A DNA stretch of 57,989 nt. Source: a virus. Below, in pieces: positions 25,624 to 57,989 of the stretch (position 1 is the stretch's first letter; each line of letters opens with the position of its first letter). Where the stretch lies: IMG/VR virus record IMGVR_UViG_3300044635_001982, positions 1-57,989 of that record. The stretch is one strand, 5' to 3'. The notes under the pieces were generated by a model. It was not told where the DNA came from. It ran no database searches and was given only the letters and a program-made list of their open reading frames with translations. The position numbers and the translations under genes were made by a program.

Positions 25624-26757
25624 TTAGCTGCCGAAGGGTGTCCCGACTCTGCGGAGGACGGCCTTGATTTTGTCAGGGTCATCGCCCGCGGCCTCGAGCA
25701 TTTCGGCGGCGGTGGGTTGTTTGGTGCTCGTCGCGCCGGGCGTTGCGCCGCTGGCGGGACTGGGCGGGACCGGACGGGCCGGTTTCTTGGGCACGACCGC
25801 GGGGGTCGGCTTGGGAGCGGCTGCGGCGGACGCCGGCGGCCGGTAATTGATCTGCCGCGCGGCTTTGGCGGCGAAAGTGACGGGCCAGTCGGGATCCACG
25901 AACGCGGACGGCGGGGCGGCGGCGATGAGGTCGTCGGTGACTTGGGAAAGCTCGGAGTTTTCATCGTCCAAGTCGGGATACAACTCGGTGGCGTATTTTG
26001 CGGCGGCGTTGACTTCGGTTTGCAGCTTCGTCAGCTCCTGCGCCTGCGACTCGGCGGCGGCGCTTTCGGCTTTCGCCTCAAGCTTGCCGATCTCGTGCAG
26101 CGCCTTGTTGTGGGCGATCTGGAGCTTGGCGAGCTTGGGCGTGTCGAAAGCCGTGGCGGCGTCCTCGATCTGCTTTTCGATTTCGGCGATCTCGGTCTGC
26201 TTGGCGGCGAGGTCGTCGGATGGGACGGATGGGGCCGATGCGGCGGCGGGTTTGGAGGACAGAACGCCCTCGGCGATCAATTCGGCTCGGGCCTGGTCGA
26301 TGGTCAGACCGTCCTTTTCCGCCATGCGGGCGATGACCTTGCGGTCGTCTTCGGCAAAGCGGGTGATGCGGACGCGGGCGGGGTCTTTGCGCTTGGCGGC
26401 GTCGGCTTCGGCTTTGGCCTGGGCATCGGCGGCGGCGGCATCGGCTTCGGCCTTGGCCGTTTGATCGGCCTCGGCTTGGGCTGCGTCTGCAGCAGCGGCA
26501 TCGGCTTCGGCCTGCTCCTGCTCCTCGGGTGTGGGCTGGGCGTCGTCTAGGACATTCCAGTTGTCGGTGGCGACGCGCGGCGTGGCGAGAGCGCCGGAAT
26601 TGGCGCGGAGCTGGGCGCGGATTTCTTCGAGGGACTCCCCGGCCTCAACGGGCTGGGGAACGGCGTCCGGCGCAGGGGCCGTCTGGGTTTCCGCGGGAGG
26701 CGTGACGCCATCCGGGGCGGGGTTCTCGGCAGTCGCCGGAGAAGAGGTGGATTCCAT
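25624..26757 (-). CDS. Scaffold-like coiled-coil protein (377 aa)
   Basis: Extremely Ala, Glu, Asp and Lys-rich, with long predicted coiled coils (AEADAAAADAQAKAEADAAKR and QTEIAEIEKQIEDAATAFDT). It has a Pro-rich N-terminus and a short C-terminus ending RRVGTPFGS. Located directly upstream of the major capsid gene, this is the usual size and place of a podovirus scaffolding protein. A class B promoter is positioned 10 nt before its ATG. Function is inferred from composition and synteny. Confidence 0.7.
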   Translation of the reverse strand: MESTSSPATAENPAPDGVTPPAETQTAPAPDAVPQPVEAGESLEEIRAQLRANSGALATPRVATDNWNVLDDAQPTPEEQEQAEADAAAADAAQAEADQTAKAEADAAAADAQAKAEADAAKRKDPARVRITRFAEDDRKVIARMAEKDGLTIDQARAELIAEGVLSSKPAAASAPSVPSDDLAAKQTEIAEIEKQIEDAATAFDTPKLAKLQIAHNKALHEIGKLEAKAESAAAESQAQELTKLQTEVNAAAKYATELYPDLDDENSELSQVTDDLIAAAPPSAFVDPDWPVTFAAKAARQINYRPPASAAAAPKPTPAVVPKKPARPVPPSPASGATPGATSTKQPTAAEMLEAAGDDPDKIKAVLRRVGTPFGS

Positions 26758-26767
26758 GTCCGCCGTG

Positions 26768-26795
26768 CGGTTAGGCGCGGGCGGGGTTTAGGCAA
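26768..26795 (-). promoter_or_regulatory. Class B promoter candidate for the scaffold gene
   Basis: On the minus strand TTGCCT (26795-26790), a 16-base spacer and TAACCG (26773-26768) end 10 nt before the ATG at 26757. Confidence 0.6.
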
Positions 26796-30590: not shown

Positions 30591-30863
30591 TCAGTAGGCG
30601 GGTTTGGGCTGGCGGTAGGCGAGGACGGCACCGCTGGCGAGGGTGATGCTGGTGATGCGCGGGATGCGCACGGGGACGCCTTTGGGGAGGGTTTCGCCGG
30701 CGAGCGCGTTGCCGGTCACGGCGTCGGAGACGAGGGCGGTGATCTGGCTGTCCTCCAGCGGGAGGATGAGGCCGAAGAGTCCGGTGTGGGCGGACGTATT
30801 GGTGATGACTTCAACGCCGTAGGAACCGGCGGCGATGTTGGCGAGTTCCTGTTCGGTTTGCAC
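30591..30863 (-). CDS. Small virion-cluster protein, unknown (90 aa)
   Basis: Starts with GTG at 30863 (MQTEQELANIAAGSYGVEV). A class B promoter sits just 9 nt upstream and predicts a leaderless GTG-initiated mRNA. The product is beta-like (GVPVRIPRITSITLASGAVL). It is followed after one base by the fibre-type gene, so they are likely an operon. No family is recognised. Confidence 0.5.
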   Translation of the reverse strand: MQTEQELANIAAGSYGVEVITNTSAHTGLFGLILPLEDSQITALVSDAVTGNALAGETLPKGVPVRIPRITSITLASGAVLAYRQPKPAY

Positions 30864-30872
30864 GAACAGCGC

Positions 30873-30900
30873 GGGCTACGGGCGCGCGGAAGTTGGGCAA
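30873..30900 (-). promoter_or_regulatory. Class B promoter candidate before 30863
   Basis: TTGCCC (30900-30895), a 16-base spacer and TAGCCC (30878-30873) on the minus strand. The -10 ends 9 nt before the GTG start. Confidence 0.6.
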
Positions 30901-33894: not shown

Positions 33895-34170
33895 TCATTC
33901 GGCTTCGTCGTCCTTGTTTTCGCCCTCGATCTCCGCGCGCATCCGGGCGGCGGTCTTGGCGCGCTCGCCGGTCATCCATTCGTCGATCGCGCCGAAGCTG
34001 GCGTACCACTGGCCGGCGGCGGCGGTGTGGACTTGGCAGGTGGTGTCCGGATTGCGGGCAGTGGCGAAGATGCGGACGCTATCGAACCCATGCTCATGAA
34101 GCTGGGCGGCGTAATGCTCCAGGAGGGCGGAGACCTGGGCCTCGTCGGACGGATCGAAGGTATCGGCCAT
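33895..34170 (-). CDS. Small acidic protein upstream of portal, unknown (91 aa)
   Basis: MADTFDPSDEAQVSALLEHY at the start, a middle part IFATARNPDTTCQVHTAAAG and an acidic end, EIEGENKDDEAE. It is the first gene of the minus-strand virion operon and has a class B promoter 10 nt before its ATG. No family is recognised. The small size and location next to the portal could suit a head assembly factor. Confidence 0.55.
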   Translation of the reverse strand: MADTFDPSDEAQVSALLEHYAAQLHEHGFDSVRIFATARNPDTTCQVHTAAAGQWYASFGAIDEWMTGERAKTAARMRAEIEGENKDDEAE

Positions 34171-34180
34171 TCGCCCGCGC

Positions 34181-34208
34181 CAGCTACGGGCGGGGCGGGG
34201 TTAGGCAA
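34181..34208 (-). promoter_or_regulatory. Class B promoter candidate for the portal operon
   Basis: TTGCCT (34208-34203), a 16-base spacer and TAGCTG (34186-34181) on the minus strand, 10 nt before the ATG at 34170. Its core (TTGCCTAAC, then TAGCTG) is nearly the same as the copy at 49819. Confidence 0.65.
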
Positions 34209-36400: not shown

Positions 36401-36679
36401 TCAGCGGCCCTCCTTCGCGCGGAGTTTTCCGGTGTAGGCGCGGGCGGCGGCGAGGAACCGCGTCCGGCCCGCATCGCCGGCGCGCAGGGCGTAGGCGGCG
36501 GCGGCGCGAATGATCCTCCAGTTCGTGTTTGGACCGCCCTTGGCGAGCGGAGCTTTCGGGTGCCAGGGGCTGACTCCGGCGCAGTAGTCGAGGAGTCCGG
36601 TGGTGCCGAGTTCGGTCAGGTCGATCTCGTGCGAGTGAAGGGCCGGCGCGGGGCTCGGCGTGTCATTTGGTTCTTTCAT
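36401..36679 (-). CDS. Small protein under class A promoter, unknown (92 aa)
   Basis: The ATG at 36679 (MKEPNDTPSPAPALHSHEID) lies 7 nt after a class A promoter -10. The C-terminal half is helical and basic (RAAAAYALRAGDAGRTRFLA). The start MKEP resembles the MKKEP and MKDQ starts of the other class A-controlled genes. It heads the operon that includes the SNF2 helicase. No family is recognised. Confidence 0.55.
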   Translation of the reverse strand: MKEPNDTPSPAPALHSHEIDLTELGTTGLLDYCAGVSPWHPKAPLAKGGPNTNWRIIRAAAAYALRAGDAGRTRFLAAARAYTGKLRAKEGR

Positions 36680-36686
36680 CAACCAG

Positions 36687-36715
36687 ACCACACAAACGAG
36701 CCCGGAAAGCGTCAA
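36687..36715 (-). promoter_or_regulatory. Class A promoter
   Basis: TTGACG (36715-36710), a 17-base spacer ending GTTTG, and TGTGGT (36692-36687) on the minus strand, 7 nt before the ATG at 36679. One of four near-identical copies. Confidence 0.7.
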
Positions 36716-39133: not shown

Positions 39134-39163
39134 TTGACCGGGAGTGATACTCCCTGATAGTTT
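39134..39163 (+). promoter_or_regulatory. Rightward promoter with embedded operator palindrome
   Basis: TTGACC (39134-39139) and TAGTTT (39158-39163) are 18 bases apart, and the -10 ends 6 nt before the ATG at 39170. The spacer contains the perfect palindrome GGGAGT-GAT-ACTCCC (39140-39154). A repressor bound there would block RNA polymerase. Confidence 0.6.
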
Positions 39164-39169
39164 GGCGGC

Positions 39170-39364
39170 ATGAGCGAACCATCAGACACCCAACCCGAAG
39201 GCACCGACGAGGAACTCGTGCAGGTGGTAGTGAGCAGCTTTCCGAAGGCGCTGCTCGACGAGATCGACGCGGAGGCGAAACTGAACAACCGCACTCGCGC
39301 GGCGGAAATTCGGCACACCCTCGCGGAGCGCATGGCGGAACGCCGGAGCGCCCAAGCCGCCTAA
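39170..39364 (+). CDS. Ribbon-helix-helix regulator (64 aa)
   Basis: Short RHH protein: strand ELVQVVVSSFPKALLDEID, then AEAKLNNRTRAAEIRHTLAE. The 64 aa are close to a minimal Arc/CopG size. Its mRNA would be nearly leaderless. It lies opposite the 126-aa RHH gene, and the palindrome in its own promoter suggests autoregulation or cross-regulation. It starts the rightward early operon and is followed after 3 nt by an excisionase-like HTH gene, so it may be the lytic-side (Cro-like) partner. Confidence 0.7.
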   Translation: MSEPSDTQPEGTDEELVQVVVSSFPKALLDEIDAEAKLNNRTRAAEIRHTLAERMAERRSAQAA

Positions 39365-39712: not shown

Positions 39713-39741
39713 TTGACGCTTTCGCGGGTGGTTTGTGGGGT
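39713..39741 (+). promoter_or_regulatory. Class A promoter (variant)
   Basis: TTGACG (39713-39718), a 17-base spacer ending GTTTG and TGGGGT (39736-39741), 6 nt before the ATG at 39748. Confidence 0.6.
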
Positions 39742-39747
39742 CTGGTG

Positions 39748-39816
39748 ATGAAAGACCAAACTACGACCGATGACGGCGGGCGCGACGCGACCGGACGGAA
39801 AGGGGGAGAGGAATGA
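39748..39816 (+). CDS. Leader-size ORF under class A promoter (22 aa)
   Basis: MKDQTTTDDGGRDATGRKGG and two Glu, then TGA. It begins at the class A promoter and its stop overlaps the next start (ATGA). Its main role may be to start ribosomes on a leaderless mRNA and pass them to the membrane-protein gene. The sequence itself has no recognised function. Confidence 0.4.
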   Translation: MKDQTTTDDGGRDATGRKGGEE

Positions 39817-45736: not shown

Positions 45737-46396
45737 ATGAACGCCATCGAACTCTACCACTCCAACGGAAAGCCGTGCGGCATCTACCACTGCGAGAAGT
45801 GCAGCGTCGTGCATCGAACGAAACAACTGGCGGATGAGTGCTGCCTGCCGCGCGTCTGCGATTGCGGCGCTGAATGCCCGCAACCCTACACGGTCTGCGA
45901 TGAGTGCCGCCGCAAGAAAGACATCGCCCGCGAGCGATCCCGATTCGATGCTGCGGAAAAGGTGAAGGAATGGAGCGGGCCAGTCTGCGCGCCACACAGC
46001 GACCGCTACGGAAGAAACCTCGACGAGCTGCTGGAACTGCTCGACTACGACGAATCCGACCCGCCGGAATACGTCTGGACCTGCTCGGAGCGCCCTGTCT
46101 GCCATCTCGATTACGGCTCCATCATCGAGGGTGCGACGAGTGACGCTTACGAGGACTTCGATCCCGACTCACTTCACGGAGAAAAGGAACTGACTGAAGC
46201 TCTCGAAAAGTTCAACGCGCTGAACAAGGAAAACGTCGTTTGGGAGCCGAATTACAAGGTGGCGCTCGTGCTCGAAGCGGCAGGGCGGGCGGCTGCGGAT
46301 GGGAGTGCTGACGAGACGGGTGAAGCGAAGAGCGGCGCGGGTTCAGCTAGCGATGGAACTGAGGAGCGCCGGGAGCCGCGCCCCACCGAAACCTGA
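45737..46396 (+). CDS. Zinc-ribbon-like protein, unknown (219 aa)
   Basis: Cys-rich N-terminus: YHCEKCSVVHRTKQLADECC, then VCDCGAECPQPYTVCDECRR, enough for two zinc sites. An acidic middle (ELLELLDYDESDPPEYVWTC) and a domain ELTEALEKFNALNKENVVWE follow, then a disordered tail. Similar zinc-ribbon proteins are frequent in phage early regions with unknown function. It may bind DNA or protein. Confidence 0.6.
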   Translation: MNAIELYHSNGKPCGIYHCEKCSVVHRTKQLADECCLPRVCDCGAECPQPYTVCDECRRKKDIARERSRFDAAEKVKEWSGPVCAPHSDRYGRNLDELLELLDYDESDPPEYVWTCSERPVCHLDYGSIIEGATSDAYEDFDPDSLHGEKELTEALEKFNALNKENVVWEPNYKVALVLEAAGRAAADGSADETGEAKSGAGSASDGTEERREPRPTET

Positions 46397-46410
46397 GACA
46401 AGTAACCAAT

Positions 46411-46740
46411 ATGAGAACTGAACCAATGAATCCAAAACCAACCGCCGACAGCAACGCCGAGACTACCAACCCCAGCGGAGAAGCGTCTCCTCCAGTGACT
46501 GGTTCGGCGTTTGGTGAACTCACGATATGGGAGGAGGAAGGGGGCTACTGCTCCCCTGCAATCAGCGTGAAAACAGAAGGTGGGGAAATCTCCATCGAAG
46601 ACCTGATCGAGCAAGTAATCCCCGGCTGCCCGATGAGTGGCGGCGGCACGGGACACCGCGTCGAAATCACTGTGCGTCTCATTGCGCCGAACCGCCTAGC
46701 TCTGGCACAGCCGGAGCGTAACCAGACACCGACACCATGA
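46411..46740 (+). CDS. Small acidic protein, unknown (109 aa)
   Basis: MRTEPMNPKPTADSNAETTN, then SGEASPPVTGSAFGELTIWE and a beta-like domain (GEISIEDLIEQVIPGCPMSG, then RVEITVRLI). The SGEAS stretch is encoded by a 37-bp element shared with 47108-47144. It overlaps the next gene by 4 bases. No family is recognised. Confidence 0.5.
   Translation: MRTEPMNPKPTADSNAETTNPSGEASPPVTGSAFGELTIWEEEGGYCSPAISVKTEGGEISIEDLIEQVIPGCPMSGGGTGHRVEITVRLIAPNRLALAQPERNQTPTP
46468..46504 (+). repeat. 37-bp hairpin-forming repeat, copy 1 (attC-like)
   Basis: It begins AACCCCAGCGGAG and ends CTGGTT, with an inner perfect hairpin GGAGA-AGCG-TCTCC. 29 of 37 bases match 47108-47144. The outer AACC and GGTT and the bulged stem look like an integron attC site, although it is shorter than usual. 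Confidence 0.5.
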
Positions 46741-47054
46741 AAAACTCCACCACTCCGGCTGTTGTCCAGCAGCGCCTTGTTCGGCCTCATTGGATCATCG
46801 CTCCAAGAGGATATGCTGAACCCGATCCACCATACCGATCCCGCTTCAACTTTGTGTGGTGGTTCTGGCTGCCACGCCTCCACACGCAAACGCCCGACGC
46901 CATGAATCCGCGAGTGATCCGTCTCATCTGGCTCTGCTTCGCGGTGGGGCTAGACATCTGGGGCAAGGAGTCGCGGATGTATTGGCCGAACGACGGAGCT
47001 AAACGGCGCAGTGAGCCGAGCGTTGACGAAGCTGGAGACAAATCGCCGTTATGA
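46737..47054 (+). CDS. Small protein, unknown (105 aa)
   Basis: MKNSTTPAVVQQRLVRPHWI, a Trp-rich middle (FNFVWWFWLPRLHTQTPDAM, then LIWLCFAVGLDIWGKESRMY) and a charged end. It may associate with membranes. It lies between the two 37-bp elements and overlaps both neighbours. No family is recognised. Confidence 0.45.
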   Translation: MKNSTTPAVVQQRLVRPHWIIAPRGYAEPDPPYRSRFNFVWWFWLPRLHTQTPDAMNPRVIRLIWLCFAVGLDIWGKESRMYWPNDGAKRRSEPSVDEAGDKSPL

Positions 47055-47989
47055 GCATGGAGCGCGTTCACTTACCGGAAGCGGAGGCCAGCGGCGGGAG
47101 CGCAAACAACCGCAGCGGAGAGGCGTCCGTTTCAGCGATTGGTTATCCCCTGGCGGTTGAACTTAGCGGGCGCGCAAAATGCAATGGAAGCAGCGGTCTG
47201 GTGGGAGTGGGGGGACTTCGTAAATTCGAGGCCGAAGGCGTGACTTTGATTCTCGCGGACTGCCGCGAGATCAAACTGCCGAGCTTCGATTGCGTCGTGA
47301 GTGACCCGCCCTACGGCTGCAAATACGTCGGCTCGCCGGGCACAACGCACCGAACCGGAATCCACTCCAAAGGCAGCGGCCGGGGCGAGCGCACGCGGGA
47401 AACCGTGATGCACGACGATGAGCCGTTCGACGTGGCGCGGTGGGTTCAGTGGCCGTGTGCGTTCAGCGGGGCGCAACACTACTACGACCGGCTTCCGGCT
47501 GGCGGATCGCTGCACTCGTGGGACAAGCGCGGGGACTACAAACGCACGAGCTTCGCCGACGCGGACATCATCTGGTGCTCTCGGAAGATGAACGCGCAAA
47601 CTTTCCGGCTGGTGTGGCGCGGCCTCTGCCGCCACGCGGAAAACAGCGACCCGATCCTGCACCCGACGCAAAAGCCGGTGTCGCTGATGCAATGGATGCT
47701 CTCGCTCGTCGAAGGAGCAACGGTGCTCGACCCCTACATGGGCAGCGGCACGACGGGCATCGCGTGCATCCGAGACGGGCGGCGATTCGTGGGCGTCGAA
47801 AAAGACCCAGCCCACTTTGCAATCGCCGTGCAGCGCATCCGCACGGAGCTTGCCCAGGGCGTTCTGTTCCGAGCGGGCGGCGGGGGTGCGGAGCCGGTGA
47901 GAGAAACCGCCGCTTCGGAACCGCCAAGGGATAACGATGAAGCTGACCGATCCGGGGCAGCCAAGCGGCGCAACAACGAAGGAGCATAG
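47051..47989 (+). CDS. DNA methyltransferase, N6-adenine/N4-cytosine beta-class
   Basis: 312 aa. Catalytic motif DPPY at residues 85-88, HPTQKP at 204-209 and the S-adenosylmethionine-binding DPYMGSGTTG at 227-236. The order (catalytic motif before the SAM motif) is that of beta-class amino-methyltransferases. No restriction enzyme gene is adjacent, so it is probably an orphan protecting phage DNA or acting in regulation. The first 60 residues include the SGEAS segment encoded by the 37-bp repeat and are not part of the catalytic fold. Confidence 0.85.
   Translation: MSMERVHLPEAEASGGSANNRSGEASVSAIGYPLAVELSGRAKCNGSSGLVGVGGLRKFEAEGVTLILADCREIKLPSFDCVVSDPPYGCKYVGSPGTTHRTGIHSKGSGRGERTRETVMHDDEPFDVARWVQWPCAFSGAQHYYDRLPAGGSLHSWDKRGDYKRTSFADADIIWCSRKMNAQTFRLVWRGLCRHAENSDPILHPTQKPVSLMQWMLSLVEGATVLDPYMGSGTTGIACIRDGRRFVGVEKDPAHFAIAVQRIRTELAQGVLFRAGGGGAEPVRETAASEPPRDNDEADRSGAAKRRNNEGA
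47108..47144 (+). repeat. 37-bp hairpin-forming repeat, copy 2 (attC-like)
   Basis: AACCGCAGCGGAGAGGCG onwards, ending ATTGGTT. It has the same length as 46468-46504 and 29 of 37 bases match. The two copies lie 640 bp apart with the 46737 gene between them, like a gene cassette. Confidence 0.5.
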
Positions 47990-47990
47990 A

Positions 47991-48251
47991 ATGCCATCGC
48001 CGCACGAATACTACTGCTGTTGTCGTGAGTGCCGGGCCGCACGCAGCGTGCTAACTGCGATCACGGAGCCGCGCGTCGGGGCTGCCACGGATTCGCGTCC
48101 AGCGCTTGGTTCAGTGCCGTTCGGATTACAGCCCCGCGCCGCTCGCACGAAAGACCCGGCGGGGAGTGGGCGGAGTTCCAAAAAGAATCTTCAAACTTTC
48201 TTCACTTTCCGCTTGCCAGCTATACCGGAGTCACGTATAGAAGAGACATGA
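47991..48251 (+). CDS. Small Cys-rich protein, unknown (86 aa)
   Basis: MPSPHEYYCCCRECRAARSV begins with a CCCxxC cluster, then a Pro/Arg-rich region. It starts one base after the methyltransferase stop and overlaps the next start by 4 bases. Its 3' end contains the promoter-like sequence for the next gene, which may mean the C-terminus is not important. Confidence 0.4.
   Translation: MPSPHEYYCCCRECRAARSVLTAITEPRVGAATDSRPALGSVPFGLQPRAARTKDPAGSGRSSKKNLQTFFTFRLPAIPESRIEET
48149..48177 (+). repeat. Copy of a 28-bp GC-rich repeat
   Basis: GAAAGACCCGGCGGGGAGTG and following bases resemble 45685-45712. Both lie near a gene start. Function is unknown. Confidence 0.45.
48213..48241 (+). promoter_or_regulatory. 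Promoter candidate for regulator genes
   Basis: TTGCCA (48213-48218), a 17-base spacer and TATAGA (48236-48241), 6 nt before the ATG at 48248. It is the closest to a sigma-70 consensus in the window, and it is again nearly leaderless. Confidence 0.65.
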
Positions 48252-48541
48252 CAACGAACCAAATCCAAATCGGAACCAAAATCGAACGCATCGCCAGCGA
48301 CTACACCGGAGGCCGCAAGGGCACGGTGATCGAAATCAAAGACGGTCGAGCCCGCATCGTGTGGGATGCCGGCCACCCTCGGACGTGGATCAAGTTTGCC
48401 GCTTTGCTCGTGCTCGCGCAGCCGTCGCAGACGGTGCGCGGCGAGTGGGTCGCAACTCCCGGCAGCAAGCGACACAGCGCAATCCGGGTTTGCACAAACG
48501 AAGCGCGCGGCGAAACCTGGCACGAATACCAAAAGCTATGA
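48248..48541 (+). CDS. KOW/Tudor-like small protein (97 aa)
   Basis: The N-terminal half has a KOW-type beta barrel pattern (IGTKIERIASDYTGGRKGTV, then IEIKDGRARIVWD). This fold binds nucleic acid or other proteins. The C-terminus is polar with RGEWVATPGSKRHSAIRVCT. The start at 48248 is right after a good promoter, so it probably leads a unit with the XRE and recombinase genes. Confidence 0.55.
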   Translation: MTTNQIQIGTKIERIASDYTGGRKGTVIEIKDGRARIVWDAGHPRTWIKFAALLVLAQPSQTVRGEWVATPGSKRHSAIRVCTNEARGETWHEYQKL

Positions 48542-48843
48542 CGAACTTTGGTCGCGAACTGAAAGCGCAACGCGCCGCCTGCGGACTCAGCCAGTCGCAG
48601 GCGGCAGCGTGCTTCCGGGATCTGAGCGTGCGGACGCTGCAAGCGTGGGAGACTAGCGAACAGTCTCCGCCGCTGTGGATTCAGCATGTGATTCTTGACA
48701 GGCTCTCGAAGCGGAAATCCCCGGCAGGGCGGGCGGCGGGGGCTGGGGTGGGTAAGAAAGCGCGACGGACGAAGAAGGGAAAGGCACTGAACTGTGATTC
48801 TCCAACAGATCGTTCGATAACCAACAGAGAAAAGACCCCATGA
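48538..48843 (+). CDS. XRE-family HTH regulator (101 aa)
   Basis: Residues about 5-55 form a lambda-repressor-like helix-turn-helix: RELKAQRAACGLSQSQAAAC, then LSVRTLQAWETSEQSPPLW. The C-terminal half is basic and disordered. It overlaps both neighbours by 4 bases. It may control the recombinase downstream or its own promoter at 48213-48241. Confidence 0.75.
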   Translation: MTNFGRELKAQRAACGLSQSQAAACFRDLSVRTLQAWETSEQSPPLWIQHVILDRLSKRKSPAGRAAGAGVGKKARRTKKGKALNCDSPTDRSITNREKTP

Positions 48844-49826
48844 ATACGAAACTCAATCAGGCACTGCAAAAGATGGAGGATTGGATGGTGTTGAAACATC
48901 GCGACCGGAAGACGCGGGCGACCTATCGGCGGCAGGCCGAGCGTTACTCCGCATGGCTCCAGGCGCGGCGCGATCTGCATGCCGTTTCCAGCGAGCGCAA
49001 GATCGAGGCTTATCTCACCATGCGGGCGCGCGAGGACTGCGCGCCCAGTACGCAGAATGTCGCCTTTCATGCGCTGCGGTGCTTTTACGAGCACGGGCTC
49101 GGGATCGGTCTCGGGGATATTTCGGCGCTGCGGGCGCGCCGGGAGCCGACCATCCGGCGGGCACCCTCGGTGGAGGAAACGCGGGCTATCCTCGCGGCGG
49201 CGCGACCGCTCTATGGCTACCCGTGCGACATGATCATCGAGTGGATTTACGCGAGTGGGTTGCGGGTAAGCGAGCCTCTGAACGCGCGACTGAAGGACAT
49301 CGACACTGCGCATTCCCGGTTCACGGTGCGCGATGGAAAGCACGGGGTTTCGCGGGTGGTGCCGATCCCGTGCGCGCTACTGCCGCGGCTGCTGGAGCAA
49401 ATGAAGTGGGCGGCGATGATCTGGAGCCGGGATGCGGCGGTGCCGGTCCCGGTGCCGCTGCCGGGAAAGCTGGCGCGGAAATATCCTCGGGCGCAGTTTG
49501 CCAAAGCGTGGGCGTGGCTGTTTCCGGCGAAGGAGCCGATCCGGTTTGATGGCTTTCCGGGGCTGGTGCGCTGGCGCATCCACGAATCGGCGGTGCAGCG
49601 GGCATTCAAGGCGGCGGTGCGGGCGTGCGGAGCGAGCGAGGATCTGACGCCGCATCATTTGCGGCACGCTTACGCCACGCATCTGCTGACGGAGACGCGG
49701 GCGAATGTGCGCGATGTGCAGGTGGCGATGGGACACCGGCAGATGCAGACGACGGCGGGATACATCACGCCGGAGATCGGGCGGCTGCCGGTGCCTCCGG
49801 CGCTGGCGGAGAATCGGCTTGCCTAA
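48840..49826 (+). CDS. Tyrosine recombinase, integron-integrase (IntI)-like
   Basis: 328 aa with all catalytic residues visible: Arg142 (GLRVSE), Lys167 (GKHG), His272 or His273 and Arg275 (HHLRHAYATH), His299 (GH) and Tyr308 (GYITPE). Between the Lys and the second Arg it has the extra segment of IntI proteins (LARKYPRAQFAKAWAWLFPA, then HESAVQRAFKAAV). This insert is used by IntI to bind folded attC sites. A phage-borne copy, next to attC-like repeats at 46468 and 47108, suggests cassette capture or a resolution function. It could instead be a divergent XerC-like dimer resolvase. Confidence 0.8.
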   Translation: MNTKLNQALQKMEDWMVLKHRDRKTRATYRRQAERYSAWLQARRDLHAVSSERKIEAYLTMRAREDCAPSTQNVAFHALRCFYEHGLGIGLGDISALRARREPTIRRAPSVEETRAILAAARPLYGYPCDMIIEWIYASGLRVSEPLNARLKDIDTAHSRFTVRDGKHGVSRVVPIPCALLPRLLEQMKWAAMIWSRDAAVPVPVPLPGKLARKYPRAQFAKAWAWLFPAKEPIRFDGFPGLVRWRIHESAVQRAFKAAVRACGASEDLTPHHLRHAYATHLLTETRANVRDVQVAMGHRQMQTTAGYITPEIGRLPVPPALAENRLA

Positions 49827-49846
49827 CGGCGGGGCGCGGGTAGCTG
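49819..49846 (+). promoter_or_regulatory. Class B promoter
   Basis: TTGCCT (49819-49824), a 16-base spacer and TAGCTG (49841-49846), 8 nt before the ATG at 49855. It overlaps the end of the recombinase gene. Confidence 0.65.
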
Positions 49847-49854
49847 CGCGGGCC

Positions 49855-50193
49855 ATGCCGAAGAAAAAAGCCGCGGTCGCGGCCAAGCGAGCGAAGGCGA
49901 AAGCCTCGAACCTCCCAAAAACCGAGCCTCCGAAGAATCCGGCCAAACCGGCGAAGGCCGCGGAGAAAAAGCCGTGCCAGGCGCTGGATATGCGCAAGGC
50001 TTACCAGGCGGAGATCAAGGCGCTGCGGGCGCAGGTGAAGAAGCGGACGGCGGGGCAGGTGAAGGAGCTGGCGGTTTTGCAAAAGGAGATCGCGGCGCGT
50101 GAACTCCAGAAAAAGCGGATCGAGAGCGCGACGGGCAAGGAAGTGGCGGCGCTGGAAAAACGGATCGCGGTGCTGGAGGGACGCAACTCGTGA
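49855..50193 (+). CDS. Lys/Ala-rich coiled-coil protein, unknown (112 aa)
   Basis: Basic disordered N-terminus (MPKKKAAVAAKRAKAKASNL), then a coiled coil (YQAEIKALRAQVKKRTAGQV, then ELAVLQKEIAARELQKKRIE). It is under a class B promoter. It overlaps the next GTG start by 4 bases. No family is recognised. Confidence 0.55.
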   Translation: MPKKKAAVAAKRAKAKASNLPKTEPPKNPAKPAKAAEKKPCQALDMRKAYQAEIKALRAQVKKRTAGQVKELAVLQKEIAARELQKKRIESATGKEVAALEKRIAVLEGRNS

Positions 50194-50666
50194 CGGTGGC
50201 GGAGATCCGGGCGGACGTGGACCGGGGAATCGAGATCGCGGAAAAGATGGCGGCGCTGAAAAAGGAGAAGGAGGAGATCGAGGAGCGGCTGGTCAAGGCG
50301 GGGCTGGCCGGAGAGCAGGTCGCGCTGGAAGACGAGGAGCGGGAGGGCCGGCAGTATCTGGCGCGCGGCTCGAAGCTGGTGGTGCCGGTGGTCTTCACGG
50401 CGGACATGGTGGTGAAAACTTTTGCGGCGGAGAGTTCGGTGCATCGGCAGATCGCGAAGGCGGCCGGCGACAAGCTGGCGTCTTTTTACGCGGAGAAGAA
50501 GACGCTGACGGCGATTTTCGACACGGGAAAACTGCTGCGGCGGCAGGCGGCGGAGGTGTTTGGTGCGGATGCGCCGGCGTTTGTTTCGGCGTGCCTGGCG
50601 CGAGATAAATTCGGGGTGGTAAAGAGCCAGGAGCGGGTGGAGTGGGGCCGGGCGAGCGAGGGGTAG
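50190..50666 (+). CDS. Unknown protein, helical (158 aa)
   Basis: Starts with GTG at 50190 (GTGA overlap). An N-terminal coiled coil (AEIRADVDRGIEIAEKMAAL, then KKEKEEIEERLVKAG) is followed by a mixed domain (KLVVPVVFTADMVVKTFAAE, then KLASFYAEKKTLTAIFDTG). It is co-transcribed with the 112-aa coiled-coil gene. No family is recognised. Confidence 0.55.
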   Translation: MTVAEIRADVDRGIEIAEKMAALKKEKEEIEERLVKAGLAGEQVALEDEEREGRQYLARGSKLVVPVVFTADMVVKTFAAESSVHRQIAKAAGDKLASFYAEKKTLTAIFDTGKLLRRQAAEVFGADAPAFVSACLARDKFGVVKSQERVEWGRASEG

Positions 50667-50936
50667 GAATTTAGGATTTGGGATTCAGGAGTTTGGAAGG
50701 GGGAAAACCGGAGGCGCGGAAATGCGGGTTTTTCTCTTTTGGCGGGTGTTCATAAAGTCCCCCGGATTTGGGGAGGAAAGGGGCTGTTCACAAGAGGGTC
50801 GATACTTGAACGCCTTCCGCGACGGTTTGTAAATGGCTGGCGTGGAACACGTTGCGGAACGGCGAAAAACGGGGGCTTACAGAGGGGCGCGGGGAGGGCT
50901 TGCGCAACGCGCAAATGGGGGTAGCGCGCCGGGGGG
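50667..50936. other. 270-base intergenic region upstream of the serine recombinase
   Basis: Contains a TCCCC/GGGGA hairpin near 50760 and, at its right end, a class B promoter. As with other resolvases, the recombination site could lie here, but no clear paired subsites were seen. Confidence 0.35.
50900..50927 (+). promoter_or_regulatory. Class B promoter
   Basis: TTGCGC (50900-50905), a 16-base spacer and TAGCGC (50922-50927), 9 nt before the ATG at 50937. Confidence 0.6.
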
Positions 50937-51566
50937 ATGAATGAACAGACGCCGGAAGAAAACCCGAGGGTGGCGCTGTATCTGCGGGTCTCGACGGCGG
51001 AGCAGGATCACGAGCCGCAGCGCATGGAGCTGCTGGATTTCTGCCGGCGGCGGAAGTGGACGGCGTGGACGGAATACGCGGACCAAATCTCCGGGGCGAA
51101 GTGGACGCGGGCGGGACTCGACGGACTGATGCGCGCGGTGCGGAAGCGGAAGGTGGATGTGGTGCTGTGTGTGAAGCTCGACCGGCTGGGGCGCTCGCTC
51201 TCGCACCTCGCGCAACTGATCGCGGAGTTTGACAAGCATGAGGTGGCGGTGATCTGCACGACCCAGGGGATCGACACCTCGCACAGCAATCCGGCGGGGC
51301 GGCTGCAGATGCATGTGCTGATGGCGGTCGCGGAATTCGAGCGGTCGCTGATCCGGGAGCGGACGAAGGCGGGACTGGTGGCGGCGGTGGCTCGGGGATC
51401 GAAGCTGGGGAGGCCGCGGGCGGATGCGGACAGCGGGGCGCGGGTGGCGGCGTGTCTGGCGCGAGTGCCGAGGCCGGGACTGCGCGCGGTCGCGAAGGAA
51501 TTGAAGCTGAGCTTGGGGCTGGTGGCGCGGCTGGCGAAGGCGGGGCGGGGGAAAGTTGAGAGTTGA
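50937..51566 (+). CDS. Serine recombinase (resolvase/invertase family)
   Basis: 209 aa. ALYLRVSTAEQ holds the catalytic Ser at about residue 19; CVKLDRLGRSL and FERSLIRERTKAGL are the conserved resolvase motifs. A short C-terminal HTH follows (GLRAVAKELKLSLGLVARLA). This size matches Tn3/Gin-type resolvases and invertases rather than large integrases. It could invert a fibre segment, resolve multimers or move DNA. The last residues GKVES come from the heptamer repeat. Confidence 0.85.
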   Translation: MNEQTPEENPRVALYLRVSTAEQDHEPQRMELLDFCRRRKWTAWTEYADQISGAKWTRAGLDGLMRAVRKRKVDVVLCVKLDRLGRSLSHLAQLIAEFDKHEVAVICTTQGIDTSHSNPAGRLQMHVLMAVAEFERSLIRERTKAGLVAAVARGSKLGRPRADADSGARVAACLARVPRPGLRAVAKELKLSLGLVARLAKAGRGKVES

Positions 51567-51583
51567 GAGTTGAGTGTTGAGTG
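51555..51583. repeat. Heptamer repeat (GTTGAGW)n
   Basis: It overlaps the 3' end of the serine recombinase and supplies its VES residues and TGA stop. Confidence 0.85.
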
Positions 51584-51594
51584 ACGCGGGTGTG

Positions 51595-51623
51595 TTGACG
51601 ATTGCGTGGCTCGTTTGTGTGGT
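51595..51623 (+). promoter_or_regulatory. Class A promoter
   Basis: TTGACG (51595-51600), a 17-base spacer ending GTTTG and TGTGGT (51618-51623), 8 nt before the ATG at 51632. Very similar to 55732-55760. Confidence 0.75.
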
Positions 51624-51631
51624 CTTAGTGC

Positions 51632-51967
51632 ATGAAAAAAGAACCAACAAAAACCGAAGCGCCGGCGGTCACGAGTCCGGCGCACACTCCGGGGCCGTGG
51701 AAAATGAGCGGCAGCACCACGGCGGTCTATCGCGCTGTGCAAGACGGGAATTGGGCGGGGCACAGCGACCTGAACGAACCAATCGCTTGGCTCACCGACA
51801 CGGGCCGGAACGCCGAGGAAACGGAGGCGAACGCGCGGCTGATTGCGGCCGCGCCGGAACTGCTCGCCGCGCTGAAAAAGATCGACGCCAACGCGGCTGA
51901 ATCCCCGGAGTGGATTCGGCGGGTTGCACGGAAAGCGCGGCGGAAAGCGGAAGGGAGGGCGGAATGA
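51632..51967 (+). CDS. Phage accessory protein with NARLIAAAPELL motif (111 aa)
   Basis: MKKEPTKTEAPAVTSPAHTP, then a domain ending NARLIAAAPELLAALKKID. The HTPGPW start and NARLIAAAPELL end are seen in many phage early proteins of unknown role. The last residues RRKAEGRAE and the first 13 residues are the same as in the gene at 55769, whose middle is different. It sits on a class A promoter and overlaps the next gene. Confidence 0.65.
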   Translation: MKKEPTKTEAPAVTSPAHTPGPWKMSGSTTAVYRAVQDGNWAGHSDLNEPIAWLTDTGRNAEETEANARLIAAAPELLAALKKIDANAAESPEWIRRVARKARRKAEGRAE

Positions 51968-52170
51968 GCGCGGCGGAGATGATGGGAAGGGTGGGGAAGG
52001 ATGGGGTCTGGAATGTGGAAGGGGTGCGGGTGCTGGTGCGAATCATGGATGCCCGGATGGTGTTCAACCGCCTCGACTTCAAAATCGTGCCTCTCATGGG
52101 CGCGGGTGAAGTGTGGGTGTCCGCGGCGCGCGTGGGCGAACCGGCGAAAGCGGAAGGGGGTGCGAAGTGA
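51964..52170 (+). CDS. Small protein, unknown (68 aa)
   Basis: MSAAEMMGRVGKDGVWNVEG, then a beta-like part VRVLVRIMDARMVFNRLDFK. It overlaps both neighbours by 4 bases. The gene at 55945 occupies the matching place in the second copy but has a different sequence. Confidence 0.5.
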   Translation: MSAAEMMGRVGKDGVWNVEGVRVLVRIMDARMVFNRLDFKIVPLMGAGEVWVSAARVGEPAKAEGGAK

Positions 52171-52415
52171 ACGCGCTTTATCTCGGCTGCACTGCGGCGC
52201 GGCACGCGCGCTTGGGAATCCACGCGGTGGTCAACGCGCGCGGCGGACACGCGGCGCTGAACGCGCCGACAATCGAGGACACGGAAATGATGAGGGACGC
52301 GCGGAAGGTGCGCGACCGGATCGAGCGGCGCGTGAGGTTCTATCAGTTCAACAGCCGGTTCTTTCGGCGGAACCACAAGCGCCTCGCGCATCTGGTGAGC
52401 AGTCCCGAGGACTGA
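52167..52415 (+). CDS. Small basic protein, unknown (82 aa)
   Basis: Starts with GTG (GTGA overlap): MNALYLGCTAARHARLGIHA, then DARKVRDRIERRVRFYQFNS and SRFFRRNHKRLAHLVSSPE. Basic and probably helical, maybe nucleic-acid binding. It ends just before the class B promoter of the terminase genes. Confidence 0.5.
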   Translation: MNALYLGCTAARHARLGIHAVVNARGGHAALNAPTIEDTEMMRDARKVRDRIERRVRFYQFNSRFFRRNHKRLAHLVSSPED

Positions 52416-52421
52416 GAGGGC

Positions 52422-52449
52422 TTGCGTTTTGCGGCGGTGCGCGTAGCGG
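52422..52449 (+). promoter_or_regulatory. Class B promoter for the terminase operon
   Basis: TTGCGT (52422-52427), a 16-base spacer and TAGCGG (52444-52449), 9 nt before the ATG at 52459. Confidence 0.65.
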
Positions 52450-52458
52450 GCGCGGGGC

Positions 52459-53112
52459 ATGAAGAAGAAAAAGGGGCCGGCGAAAGCCGCTCCGAAGAAA
52501 AGCGGAAAACGCCGAGACGCAGAGACGCGGAGGAAAACGCCCGCGGGCCAAAAGACACGACTGCCGGGAAGTCGTGCATCGGCGAAGGCCAAAGGTGGGC
52601 GGGGGAAGAAAAGTCCGCCGGTGCAGGATGCGCCGGCCAGCGCTCAGGATGAGCGCGCTACCCTGTCCGCTCGGCAGGAAAATTTCTGTCAGGAATATGT
52701 GAAGGGGGGGACGGCGACGGAGGCTTATGAAAAGGCTTATGGGAAGGTGAAGGGTGCGGAGGTGAGCGCGAGTCGGCTGCTAAGTAATGCTAAGGTGGCG
52801 GCGAGGGTGAAGGCGCTGCAGGAGGAGGCGGCGAAAGGGGCGGTGCTGAGCCTGCAGGAGACGCTGGAGTATTTTCGCAAGGTGGTGCTGACGCCGATCG
52901 GGGAGGTGGATGAGCGGAGCGTGCTCTGCCAGTCGGCGGAGCACAGCGACACGGGGACGAAATTCAAGATGCCGTGCAAGCTGAAGGCGCTGGAACTGAA
53001 TGCGAAGCTGCAGGGCTGGCTGCGCGAGAAGGTGGAGCACACGATCGAGCAGGATGGGCTGGCGGCGCTGATGACGAAGATTCGCGATGGACTGCGCCCA
53101 ACTGCTGAGTGA
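52459..53112 (+). CDS. terS: Terminase small subunit
   Basis: 217 aa. A basic disordered N-terminus of about 65 residues is followed by the Terminase_2 pattern LSARQENFCQEYVKGGTATE then AYEKAYGKVKGAEVSASRLL, an HTH that recognises the packaging site. The C-terminus contains EKVEHTIEQDGLAALMTKIR. It overlaps the large subunit by 26 nt. The long basic tail is unusual. Confidence 0.8.
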   Translation: MKKKKGPAKAAPKKSGKRRDAETRRKTPAGQKTRLPGSRASAKAKGGRGKKSPPVQDAPASAQDERATLSARQENFCQEYVKGGTATEAYEKAYGKVKGAEVSASRLLSNAKVAARVKALQEEAAKGAVLSLQETLEYFRKVVLTPIGEVDERSVLCQSAEHSDTGTKFKMPCKLKALELNAKLQGWLREKVEHTIEQDGLAALMTKIRDGLRPTAE

Positions 53113-54610
53113 CCCGCTGTGGAGGATCGGGAACCTCTACGGGATCAAGACCGAGGACGAGGGCCGGCGGCTGCGCTTCGCTCCAAGGCCGGAGCAGTGG
53201 GAGGTGATTCGCGCGCTGACGGAACACCCCGACCAGCCGCTCTACATCATCAAAAGCCGGCGGCTGGGGATGAGCACGGCGCTGGGGATCACGCTGGCGG
53301 ATTGCGCGGCGTGGAGCAGCGGGTTTCAGGGCTCGCTGGTGGACCAGACGCAGGCGGACGCGGAGCGGAAGATGAGCGAGATCATCCGCTACGCGGTGAA
53401 GAGCATGCCCGGGGAGCTGGCGGAGCGGCTGGAGTTTCCAAAGGCGAATGACGGGGAGCTGCAGATCGTGGTGCGGGGGCAGGATGCGCGGGCGAGTTCG
53501 CGCATTTTCGCGGGGAAGAACGCGCGCGGCGGGACGAACAATTTTTTGTGGATTTCGGAGTGGGGGCCGATCGCGGCGAACGACCCGCGGCGCTCGACGG
53601 AAATCCGCACCGGGGCGCTGCCCTCGGCCCGGCGCGGGCGGCGGGTGGTGGAGACGACGTGGTATGGCGGGAAGAGCGGAGATCTGTGGGAGCTGGTGAA
53701 ACCGATCCTGGAGCGCGATCCGAACGCGGAGGGGCGGGTGCTCTTTTTCCCGTGGCACGGGGATCCGGCGTGCGTGCGGACGACGGGCGTGGTGACGAAG
53801 GAACTGGAGGAGTATTTCCGGGAGGCGGCGGAGAAGGTGGGGCGGAAATTCAGCCGGGAGCAAAAGCTGTGGTATGGGGCGAAGCAACTGGAGCAGGGGA
53901 TGTTTGTGAAACGGGAATACCCGACGACGATGGAGGAGGCGATGACGGCTCCGGTGGAGGGCTCGATCTACGGGGAGGCGCTGGCGCGGCGGCGGGCGGC
54001 GGGGGCGATCGGGCCGGTGGAGCCGGACGCGGAGGCGCTGGTGAACACGAGCTGGGACCTGGGGAGTCCGATCAATACGGTGTGCTGGTATTTCCAGATG
54101 ATCGGGCGGGAGCTGCGGTTCATCGACGTGGACCTGGACGTGGACCTGACGGCGGCGGAACGGGTGGCGGGAATGCTGCGCAAAGGCTACCGCTTTGGCT
54201 GGCACTACGTGCCGCATGACGCGGCGGCGAAGCAATACAACGGGCGGACGTTTGCGGCGGACCTGGAGGATGCGGGGCTGAAGAATCTGCGGATCGTGCC
54301 GCGGACGGCGGATGAGTGGGTGGGGATCAATCATGTGCGGCAGAACGTGCTGCCGCGGGCGGCGTTCCGGCTGCCGCAGTGCGAGGTGGCGGTGGGGCGG
54401 CTGGAGGCGTTTCGCACAGCGCGGGAGACGAGCGGCGGGCTGGCGAAGGATGCGCCGGTGCATGACATCAACAGCCACGCGGCGGCGGCGCTGCGGACGG
54501 CGGGCGAGGCGGACCTGGCGGGGATGCTGGAGGCGGGGTGGGTGAGGAGCGCGTTTGACGGGGAGGGGTTGAAGGCGCTGCGGATGGGGGCGGGGAAAGT
54601 TGAGAGTTGA
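53087..54610 (+). CDS. terL: Terminase large subunit (ATPase/nuclease)
   Basis: 507 aa. The ATPase P-loop is deviant, KSRRLGMST (residues 56-64), with Lys placed early as in some lambda-like terminases. Walker B is FLWISEWG (Glu158). The nuclease domain has WDLG (about residue 327) and HDINSHAAAAL near the end. It drives DNA packaging into the capsid through the portal and cuts the concatemer. The C-terminus AGKVES is created by the heptamer repeat. Confidence 0.8.
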   Translation: MDCAQLLSDPLWRIGNLYGIKTEDEGRRLRFAPRPEQWEVIRALTEHPDQPLYIIKSRRLGMSTALGITLADCAAWSSGFQGSLVDQTQADAERKMSEIIRYAVKSMPGELAERLEFPKANDGELQIVVRGQDARASSRIFAGKNARGGTNNFLWISEWGPIAANDPRRSTEIRTGALPSARRGRRVVETTWYGGKSGDLWELVKPILERDPNAEGRVLFFPWHGDPACVRTTGVVTKELEEYFREAAEKVGRKFSREQKLWYGAKQLEQGMFVKREYPTTMEEAMTAPVEGSIYGEALARRRAAGAIGPVEPDAEALVNTSWDLGSPINTVCWYFQMIGRELRFIDVDLDVDLTAAERVAGMLRKGYRFGWHYVPHDAAAKQYNGRTFAADLEDAGLKNLRIVPRTADEWVGINHVRQNVLPRAAFRLPQCEVAVGRLEAFRTARETSGGLAKDAPVHDINSHAAAALRTAGEADLAGMLEAGWVRSAFDGEGLKALRMGAGKVES

Positions 54611-54628
54611 GAGTTGAGAGTTGAGTGA
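54599..54628. repeat. Heptamer repeat (GTTGAGW)n
   Basis: Four units overlapping the 3' end of the terminase large gene. The array supplies its stop codon. Confidence 0.85.
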
Positions 54629-54642
54629 CAGAATCTGCCGAC

Positions 54643-54909
54643 ATGAGAACGAAGATCGGCCAAAGAATCATCGAGGCGGCGATACGGGCGCGGGTGGCGG
54701 GTGTCATTGAGAAACAACACACGATCGACGTTTATTTGGGACGCCTGGAGCATGGGGAGTTTCGGGAACAGGAGATGAGGGGGGCGGAAATGATAAGGCG
54801 GGAGACAGCGTTGTATGAGCTGAAGGATTATATTGAGTGGAGCGGCTTTCGTGTTTTCAGGGTGGAGGCAAAGACGCATTTTGGCGTCGGGCTGGTCGGC
54901 ATTCCGTGA
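54643..54909 (+). CDS. Small protein, unknown (88 aa)
   Basis: MRTKIGQRIIEAAIRARVAG, a helical middle (ETALYELKDYIEWSGFRVFR) and FGVGLVGIP at the end. The stop overlaps the next start (TGATG). A GTG at 54625 is an alternative start. No family is recognised. Confidence 0.5.
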   Translation: MRTKIGQRIIEAAIRARVAGVIEKQHTIDVYLGRLEHGEFREQEMRGAEMIRRETALYELKDYIEWSGFRVFRVEAKTHFGVGLVGIP

Positions 54910-55703
54910 TGGACCGCATCCACCTTTCACGACAGACCACGGGGGAGCTGACGGTGCTGCCGGCGGCGGGGGGGGTGTGGCAGGTGTGGGAGCGGCCACG
55001 GGTGCATTGCCGGTATGTGCTGAGCGTGCGGGGCGGGGGAAAGCCGAAGCTGATCGGGGGGCGGAAGGAACGGGAGCGGAGTGTGGTGCTGGTGTTGCGG
55101 AAATGGTTCGCGACGGAGGGGACGGAGGAGGTCACGCCGACGCGGCTGGTCTGCCGGCTGACGCCGCCGACGGTGCTGGATCTCACGCCGCTGGCGGAGT
55201 TGGTGGCACTGGTGGCGGACTGGTACGGCGGGGCGCTGACTTTCGTGGAGGTGAAGGACGGGGCGCTGCTGGCGAAGGAATGCCAGCGGGTGGGCGTGGC
55301 GGTGCAGGTGCAGGAGCGGCTGGATTTGGCGACGAGCCGCTTTACGCCGGACCTCGGGTGGCTGACGGACGGGGAGACGGGACCGGCGGCGCTGAATGCG
55401 CTGGTTAATGCCATCCGGGCGACGGGCCAGTGGACGGCGAAGGGCAAGGATGAAGGCGGAAGGATGAAGGATGAGGTCAACGAGCACGCGAAGATGGCGC
55501 TCGTTTTGGAATGCCCGCACGCGCTGGCGGAGATCGAGACGTTTGCCGGGGACAGCGAAGCGCCGGCGGTGAGCCATGACGACGATGTGCGGGCGCTGGC
55601 GACGGGGCTTTACAACATCGACGCGGCGACGCGGCTGAACGCGGAGGCGAGGCGCAAGGTGGGGCCGCGGGATGGGTGGAAGGCGGGAGTGCTGCGGAGT
55701 TGA
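54909..55703 (+). CDS. Possible second terminase-nuclease-like (RNase H fold) protein (264 aa)
   Basis: Pattern resembling the C-terminal nuclease domain of large terminases: RYVLSVRGGG, VEVKDGALLAKECQRVGVAV, ALVLECPHALAEIETFAGDS and SHDDDVRALATGLYNID (an HDD-like metal site). There is no ATPase domain. The first acidic residue is not obvious, so it may be inactive. It follows the terminase genes closely. It could be an accessory packaging nuclease, or a remnant of another terminase. Confidence 0.45.
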   Translation: MDRIHLSRQTTGELTVLPAAGGVWQVWERPRVHCRYVLSVRGGGKPKLIGGRKERERSVVLVLRKWFATEGTEEVTPTRLVCRLTPPTVLDLTPLAELVALVADWYGGALTFVEVKDGALLAKECQRVGVAVQVQERLDLATSRFTPDLGWLTDGETGPAALNALVNAIRATGQWTAKGKDEGGRMKDEVNEHAKMALVLECPHALAEIETFAGDSEAPAVSHDDDVRALATGLYNIDAATRLNAEARRKVGPRDGWKAGVLRS

Positions 55704-55713
55704 GTGTTGAGTG
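55699..55713. repeat. Short heptamer repeat
   Basis: Two units, whose first TGA is the stop codon of the preceding gene. Confidence 0.75.
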
Positions 55714-55731
55714 AAAAAGCGGGTGGGGCGG

Positions 55732-55760
55732 TTGACGCTTTTGCGCGGCGTTTGTGTGGT
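55732..55760 (+). promoter_or_regulatory. Class A promoter
   Basis: TTGACG (55732-55737), a 17-base spacer ending GTTTG and TGTGGT (55755-55760), 8 nt before the ATG at 55769. Confidence 0.75.
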
Positions 55761-55768
55761 CTTAGTGC

Positions 55769-55948
55769 ATGAAAAAAGAACCAACAAAAACCGAAGCGCC
55801 GGCGGTCATAAGTCCGGCGCGAATTCTCTCTCCGCGGGCGCGGGCGGAATACTACGAGGTGATGCTGCCGGCCTGGGCGCGCCCTCGCCCGATGGCGGAA
55901 TGGGCGGCACGCTTGCCGCGGCGGAAAGCGGAAGGGAGGGCGGAATGA
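55769..55948 (+). CDS. Short relative of the 51632 gene with replaced middle (59 aa)
   Basis: The N-terminus (MKKEPTKTEAPAV) and C-terminus (RRKAEGRAE) match the protein at 51632, but the centre (ARILSPRARAEYYEVMLPAW) is unrelated and shorter. Promoter and first codons are nearly identical at DNA level. It overlaps the next gene by 4 bases. This points to duplication plus recombination between conserved ends. Confidence 0.55.
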   Translation: MKKEPTKTEAPAVISPARILSPRARAEYYEVMLPAWARPRPMAEWAARLPRRKAEGRAE

Positions 55949-56671: not shown

Positions 56672-56674
56672 AAG

Positions 56675-56690: not shown

Positions 56691-56713
56691 GTGAGAGTAA
56701 AGAATCCGCGGCG

Positions 56714-57076: not shown

Positions 57077-57104
57077 TTGCCGAACTGAGGCGTGACCGTA
57101 GCGG
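57077..57104 (+). promoter_or_regulatory. Class B promoter for the polyvalent-protein operon
   Basis: TTGCCG (57077-57082), a 16-base spacer and TAGCGG (57099-57104), 9 nt before the ATG at 57114. No other promoter is seen before the giant gene, so it probably drives that too. Confidence 0.65.
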
Positions 57105-57113
57105 GACAAGGGC

Positions 57114-57989
57114 ATGGCTTATCCACGCTCCGCCCGCCGCCGTGAAGAAATGCCGCAACGCCCGCGCATCGATGCGCGAGCGGCGCGGCGCGACCTGAAC
57201 GGGAATGTCATCTCGGAACCGGGGGAGATGGCGTTCACGAAAATGCACCGCGGCATGGATGGGAAGCCGGACAGCGGCGAGAGCATCGGGCGCGGAACGA
57301 CGATGCAGTTCCCCGCGCGGAAATCGGGCCTCGACGGACTGCGACCGCTGGCGGATGCGCCGGCTCAGCGGCAGGGACCGCTGCCGGACGGCGGAACGAT
57401 GGACACGACCACGACGCCTTCGGGGTTTCCGCGCAGCCGGATGACGACGGGCAACGCCGGGGTGGAGATGCGCGGGGCGGAGGAGCGCGGGGCGCAGATG
57501 GCTCCGGCGGCATCGCGGACGGCATTTCCCCGACCGGGAACGGGGGCGAACATCATGCGCCAGCCGGACGGGAGTCCGGGGGGGCTGATCACGGCGGCAC
57601 CGGGGGGAGGGCGCGATCTTTCGAGCGTGTATGGCACGGGGAGTCTGCGGTTTCCGCAGCCTCCAGGGTTGGCGAAGCAGGATATGACGGCGATGCCGCG
57701 ACACAGTGCGCTGCTGCCGACGGCGCGGGTGAGACCTCGGGCGGAGGCGGATGCGCTGGCGGCGAAGCTGGAAAGGCCCGAACCGCAGCCTCCAGGGCTG
57801 GCGAAGCAGGATATGACGGCGATGCCGCGACACAGTGCGCTGCTGCCGACGGCGCGGGTGAGACCTCGGGCGGAGGCGGATGCGCTGGCGGCGAAGCTGG
57901 AAAGGCCCGAACCGCAGCCTCCAGGGCTGGCGAAGCAGGATATGACGGCGATGCCGCGACACAGTGCGCTGCTGCCGACGGCGCGGGTG
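57114..57989 (+). CDS. Repeat-bearing protein, N-terminal part (continues at base 2)
   Basis: Starts MAYPRSARRREEMPQRPRID under a class B promoter. The first 180 residues are rich in Gly, Pro, Arg and Met (GEMAFTKMHRGMDGKPDSGE) and look disordered. From residue 182 on, 43-aa units repeat. The frame runs out of the window and re-enters at base 2 to end at 217, giving about 321 aa as assembled. It leads the operon of the giant protein and may be a virion-internal partner. The array may vary in length. Confidence 0.7.
   Translation, partial: MAYPRSARRREEMPQRPRIDARAARRDLNGNVISEPGEMAFTKMHRGMDGKPDSGESIGRGTTMQFPARKSGLDGLRPLADAPAQRQGPLPDGGTMDTTTTPSGFPRSRMTTGNAGVEMRGAEERGAQMAPAASRTAFPRPGTGANIMRQPDGSPGGLITAAPGGGRDLSSVYGTGSLRFPQPPGLAKQDMTAMPRHSALLPTARVRPRAEADALAAKLERPEPQPPGLAKQDMTAMPRHSALLPTARVRPRAEADALAAKLERPEPQPPGLAKQDMTAMPRHSALLPTARV
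57657..57989 (+). repeat. 129-bp tandem repeat array (43-aa protein repeat)
   Basis: Full units lie at 57732-57860 and 57861-57989. A 75-bp partial unit precedes them at 57657-57731, and another partial unit continues after the junction at 128-166. The unit encodes 43 residues starting RPRAEADALAAKL and ending SALLPTARV. The two full units are identical, so an assembler could collapse or expand the array. The true copy number is unknown. Confidence 0.85.
57863..57989. repeat. Right copy of 127-bp terminal direct repeat
   Basis: Identical to 1-127. Removing one copy gives a circle of about 57,862 bp and restores an uninterrupted gene that starts at 57114 and ends at 217. Confidence 0.9.

Follow-up and report, generated by a model that had tools for sequence, protein, structure and literature searches.

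Promoter-like boxes abutting start codons predict near-leaderless first genes in a tailed phage with a probable Verrucomicrobiota host

Thirteen genes in an IMG/VR viral record (the window, i.e. the whole stretch of 57,989 bp that was analysed; 66% GC) are preceded by paired -35/-10 boxes, whose distance to the start codon predicts leaders of 0-4 nt (leader length being computed with a 6-nt discriminator). Given this geometry and the lack of Shine-Dalgarno (SD) sites at the same genes, the sequence by itself is best read as giving near-leaderless messages, and we favour (with a probability of about 0.7) host-type leaderless initiation at the starts of transcription units. The simplest reading is that the phage follows the ordinary leaderless layout of its host, which makes it a family habit more than a new trick; as the probable host phylum uses this layout itself, the observation becomes less surprising.

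The first 127 bases of the window are repeated exactly at its end, as part of a tandem repeat of 129 nt; this suggests a circular molecule whose sequence was opened inside a repeat. The gene set comprises a terminase small subunit (Terminase_2, E 2e-16) with the adjoining large-subunit gene (53087-54610, plus strand), a portal (33839-31788, minus strand; phrog_1216, E 7e-22), a major head protein (25596-23974, minus strand; phrog_334, E 4e-15), an SNF2 helicase, a tyrosine recombinase, a serine recombinase and a DNA methylase; with this gene set it is a tailed phage, and probably a temperate one. Contigs of the same phage were found in two other samples, and the region 36,000-57,900 had no near DNA match among 50,697 phage records. 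About one third of the genome is occupied by a single ORF (227-18421) for a 6064-aa protein of unknown function, and 9-nt tandem repeats at 19950-20264 encode, on the minus strand, a collagen-like Gly-Pro-Thr array. The tyrosine recombinase (48840-49826), whose best plasmid matches were integron integrases (34% identity), coexists with a second tyrosine recombinase-like gene and with the serine recombinase. The segment 36770-36850 resembles the 3' end of a tRNA gene (GGTTCGAATCCCACCCCCTCCGCCA, minus strand), lies beside an integrase-like gene (36952-38283, minus strand) and is probably attP; no whole tRNA gene was found in the window. Tandem heptamers (GTTGAGA/T; CTCAAC on the minus strand) fill at least seven intergenic places (23210-23268, 23877-23935, 30915-30973, 31333-31391, 33841-33899, 51549-51607 and 54593-54651), several of them stopping a few nucleotides before a start codon.

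The host phylum is probably Verrucomicrobiota, as the closest terminase found outside viral contigs (51% identical) belongs to the Verrucomicrobiota genome G254, compared with ~31% identity to the terminases of phages of known host. A portal relative (32%) was present in another genome of the phylum (G190), and a terminase profile search of genome contigs returned no confirmed relative. Two further markers were tried and set aside: the heptamer repeat (arrays of which are also present in certain MAGs of Verrucomicrobiota and Bacteroidota) matched Verrucomicrobiota, Bacteroidota and a few others and is thus weak evidence of host, while an 81-nt att-like query was too unspecific to single out a genus (~26-38 nt matched in 239 of 387 Verrucomicrobiota genomes).

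The lists of putative promoters were rebuilt in this analysis, with the gap taken as the number of nucleotides between the -10 hexamer and the start codon. Class A (a TTGCnnAAC-like -35, a 16-nt spacer and a TAGC/TAAC -10) has seven members with gaps of 8-10 nt. Four are on the plus strand: 49819..49857 (TTGCCT-N16-TAGCTG, gap 8, ATG 49855; a 112-aa protein of unknown function, no SD), 50900..50939 (the starting observation: TTGCGC at 50900-50905, 16 nt, TAGCGC at 50922-50927, gap 9, ATG 50937-50939; the 209-aa serine recombinase, Resolvase, E 2e-41), 52422..52461 (TTGCGT-N16-TAGCGG, gap 9, ATG 52459; terminase small subunit) and 57077..57116 (TTGCCG-N16-TAGCGG, gap 9, ATG 57114; a gene that continues over the contig join and precedes the 6064-aa ORF at 227). 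On the minus strand they stand at 34168..34208 (TTGCCT-N16-TAGCTG, gap 10, ATG 34170; upstream of the portal gene), 30861..30900 (TTGCCC-N16-TAGCCC, gap 9, GTG 30863; a 90-aa protein, phrog_34166) and 26755..26795 (TTGCCT-N16-TAACCG, gap 10, ATG 26757; followed by the major head protein gene).

Class B (TTGACG-N17-TGTGGT/TGGGGT) has four members with gaps of 6-8 nt, located at 36677..36715 (minus strand, TGTGGT, gap 7, ATG 36679, MKEPNDTPS...), 39713..39750 (plus, TGGGGT, gap 6, ATG 39748; a 22-aa ORF, MKDQTTTDD...), 51595..51634 (plus, TGTGGT, gap 8, ATG 51632; 111 aa, phrog_1273) and 55732..55771 (plus, TGTGGT, gap 8, ATG 55769; 59 aa), the last being a recent duplicate of the third. The duplicated unit (51594-51683 versus 55731-55820; promoter plus first 17 codons) is 90% identical over 90 nt with differing downstream coding and reads as a recombining promoter-start cassette; the class B copies are therefore not four independent events. 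Two sigma70-like sites on the plus strand, both with a gap of 6 nt, complete the set: 39134..39172 (TTGACC-N18-TAGTTT, ATG 39170) and 48213..48250 (TTGCCA-N17-TATAGA, ATG 48248; 97 aa). The spacer of the former holds a palindrome (GGGAGTGATACTCCC, 39140-39157) between divergent small genes, of which the minus-strand one encodes a ribbon-helix-helix protein, and the palindrome is a possible operator.

The initial annotation had placed the end of the -10 box 6-10 nt before ATG or GTG in most copies of classes A and B, and all 11 gaps fall in that range; the pattern as such exceeds chance by far. TTGC-N18-TAGC occurs six times in the window (shuffles: mean 0.7, maximum 4), all six with a start codon 9-13 nt past TAGC (shuffles: mean 0.065, maximum 1); the AAC-extended form, TTGCNNAAC-N13-TAGC, occurs five times (none in 200 shuffles) and the class B pattern four times (none in 100 shuffles). 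Chance matches in GC-rich sequence, picked by eye, would find some footing in the shortness of TTG and TAGC and in the choice of the classes after they had been seen, but the shuffles refute chance as a full account, and against it also stands a generic test that was not tuned to class A (TTG-type -35 plus TA-type -10, spacing 16-18 nt, gap 5-10 versus gap 16-45), in which 8 phage genes had the short gap against 1.0 expected (p 1e-5); we thus regard this account as scarcely credible. A PWM built from the seven class A boxes scored them 16.8-23.7 (the window maximum being the site at 49819), which, given that origin, measures their coherence only; the next match (27360, minus strand) reached 15.7 and the rest stayed below 12. 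Leaderless genes of bacteria are conventionally recognised by TAnnnT ~10-12 bp before the start codon (PMC3160421). The first T of the -10 stands at -12 to -16 in 13 of 13 sites, in agreement by position with TA-led genes, in which it is expected ~10-15 bp upstream; by form, TAGTTT fits, while TATAGA, class A (TAGCnn, TAACCG) and class B (TGTGGT, TGGGGT) deviate, and the missing final T in the TAGCnn of class A counts against the favoured reading.

Across 56 genes, SD sites were scored as GGAG, GAGG or AGGA at a gap of 3-12, the 13 boxed genes being taken as the first genes of transcription units and the 43 promoter-distal ones being listed by hand. An SD tetramer precedes none of the 13 promoter-proximal genes versus 13 of the 43 distal ones (Fisher p 0.026; background 12%), and some other distal genes abut or overlap the preceding gene. 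The distal genes with SD sites are mostly on the plus strand (39700-57000) and rare on the minus strand (18400-39000). The initial annotation's observation that few boxed genes have an SD site is thus upheld, and the predicted leaderless expression "throughout the phage" has to be narrowed to 13 of the 56 genes (the first ones of their units), since these are mixed with SD-led or coupled later genes.

The pipeline used for the phage was applied to 840, 723 and 340 kb of sequence from the Verrucomicrobiota genomes G254, G002 and G190, respectively. The leaderless peak was pronounced in G254 (43 vs 11.6 expected, ratio 3.7, p 1e-12; SD ratio 1.07) and G002 (45 vs 13.2, ratio 3.4, p 6e-12; SD ratio 1.31), was reproduced in fresh halves of both (p 8e-6 and p 8e-10, respectively), and appeared in G190 (21 vs 9.8, ratio 2.1, p 1e-3; SD ratio 0.92); it was weak in G001 (ratio 1.96, p 0.045) and absent from G193, another member of the phylum. 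Escherichia coli gave the reverse of the Verrucomicrobiota pattern (9 vs 7.8 expected, ratio 1.15; SD ratio 4.31). A Deinococcus plasmid, included as positive control, had a TAnnnT peak (p 3e-3) and no TTG-TA pair peak, so the pair test detects only those leaderless genes that have a -35; with a home-made gene caller and strict boxes, the excess found (4-7% of genes) is a rough estimate and probably an underestimate. The host leaderless promoters favour a TTGC -35, a TAAnnT/TAGnnT -10 and 17-nt spacing. By Cappable-seq, ~10% of start sites are leaderless in Akkermansia muciniphila versus 0.4% in E. coli (PMC4782308), and Akkermansia is among the SD-scarce organisms (PMC10783764). Together, the genomic peaks, the Akkermansia figure and the scarcity of SD sites indicate that a leaderless layout is ordinary in the phylum. 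The initial annotation had considered such expression unusual for a tailed phage, a view that is not supported, as genomes of the likely host phylum (G254, G002, G190) have the same leaderless peak and little SD signal; its suggestion that such expression could exploit host ribosome states is likewise unsupported. The authors of the AR9 study remark that the transcripts of phages "are often leaderless" (PMC5312081).

Class A is the least explained part of the system, and its box looks phage-specific. The strict pattern occurs in 1 of 387 Verrucomicrobiota genomes (hence a phage factor may be needed), and the phage boxes are not identical to common host promoters; the exact TTGM-N18-TAGC-N11-ATG was no more frequent in three genomes than its reversed control, and searches of viral contigs with the class A and class B patterns recovered same-phage contigs only. 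Distant phage relatives, too diverged for a test of box conservation, had a non-significant peak excess (9 vs 5.4). Class A may consequently be a late promoter of the phage with a requirement of its own, which would leave the leader-length prediction unaffected. We consider it less likely than not that class A is a phage-specific late promoter dependent on an activator or sigma factor of the phage, with the short leaders as a by-product of copying one promoter-plus-start module to several places in the genome. Such an account is consistent with the near absence of the pattern from the genomes, with a -35 extension (TTGCnnAAC) that exceeds anything enriched in host leaderless promoters (AAC follows the -35 in 0.8%), with the position of class A at the head of the terminase, portal, head-protein and giant-ORF units, and with the 5' coding sequence that class B copies have in common. 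Against it, the class A copies have little in common beyond the boxes and the genes behind them are unrelated, a similar gap recurs at the two unrelated sites and in the host genomes (which argues that spacing is kept apart from descent), and no sigma-factor domain was found among the proteins scanned, which were part of the proteome. A bolder version, in which class A would form a leaderless regulon under a phage factor, with messages favoured in translation when the balance of ribosomes or of initiation factors shifts in infection (a translational early-to-late switch), strikes us as very improbable.

Alternatively, the boxes could be operators or some other element, with transcription beginning further upstream and giving ordinary leaders, which we judge unlikely. 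The intergene 50667-50936 (270 nt) offers room and other weak matches by eye (TTGAAC-N18-TAAATG at ~50808), and 36 nt separate the class A-like match at 27360, which may fall within a small ORF, from a start codon. Against this, not one sigma70-like site came out of a consensus scan of 50660-50960 at strict threshold, the boxes keep a constant -35/-10 spacing that is tied to the start codon, and a leadered message would find no SD at the 13 genes.

Under host-type leaderless initiation, we infer that the boxes act as promoters of the sigma70 type in a temperate tailed phage of Verrucomicrobiota, and that host RNA polymerase would begin the message of each unit 0-4 nt ahead of its first start codon. 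The first gene would then head a leaderless or near-leaderless message, read by recognition of the 5'-terminal AUG or GUG (fMet-tRNA with 30S-IF2 or 70S), and later genes of the message would rely on weak SD sites or on coupling to the preceding gene. The layout would be copied from the host, since Verrucomicrobiota make little use of SD sites and start many genes without a leader, with classes A and B as phage families of it; class A, which heads most packaging and structural units, may require a phage factor.

The phage resembles the TA-led genes of Actinobacteria and Deinococcus-Thermus (Zheng 2011, PMC3160421) in having a -10 a few nucleotides before the start codon and no SD, and differs from them by a clear -35, by -10 boxes of the form TAGCnn or TGTGGT in its classes and by the fact that the genes are those of a phage. 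With Akkermansia muciniphila (PMC4782308) it shares Verrucomicrobiota, here as the probable host phylum, and transcription from the annotated start codon, which is predicted for the phage and applies to ~10% of the sites mapped in Akkermansia, although in that case RNA was measured in a host, while the phage layout is known from sequence alone. Like lambda cI and further phage messages without a leader (PMC3160421, PMC9031893), those predicted here would come from tailed-phage genes; lambda, however, offers one well-known example from an SD-led host, whereas here ~13 units (packaging and structural ones included) would be involved in a probably SD-poor host. In such phages, gene finders that rely on SD sites will set starts wrongly, and work on this phylum calls for leaderless reporters. 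Verrucomicrobiota also look like a good place for studying leaderless initiation outside Actinobacteria and Deinococcus, and our results suggest that a phage of this poorly studied phylum keeps the SD-poor, leaderless layout of its host even for its packaging and structural units.
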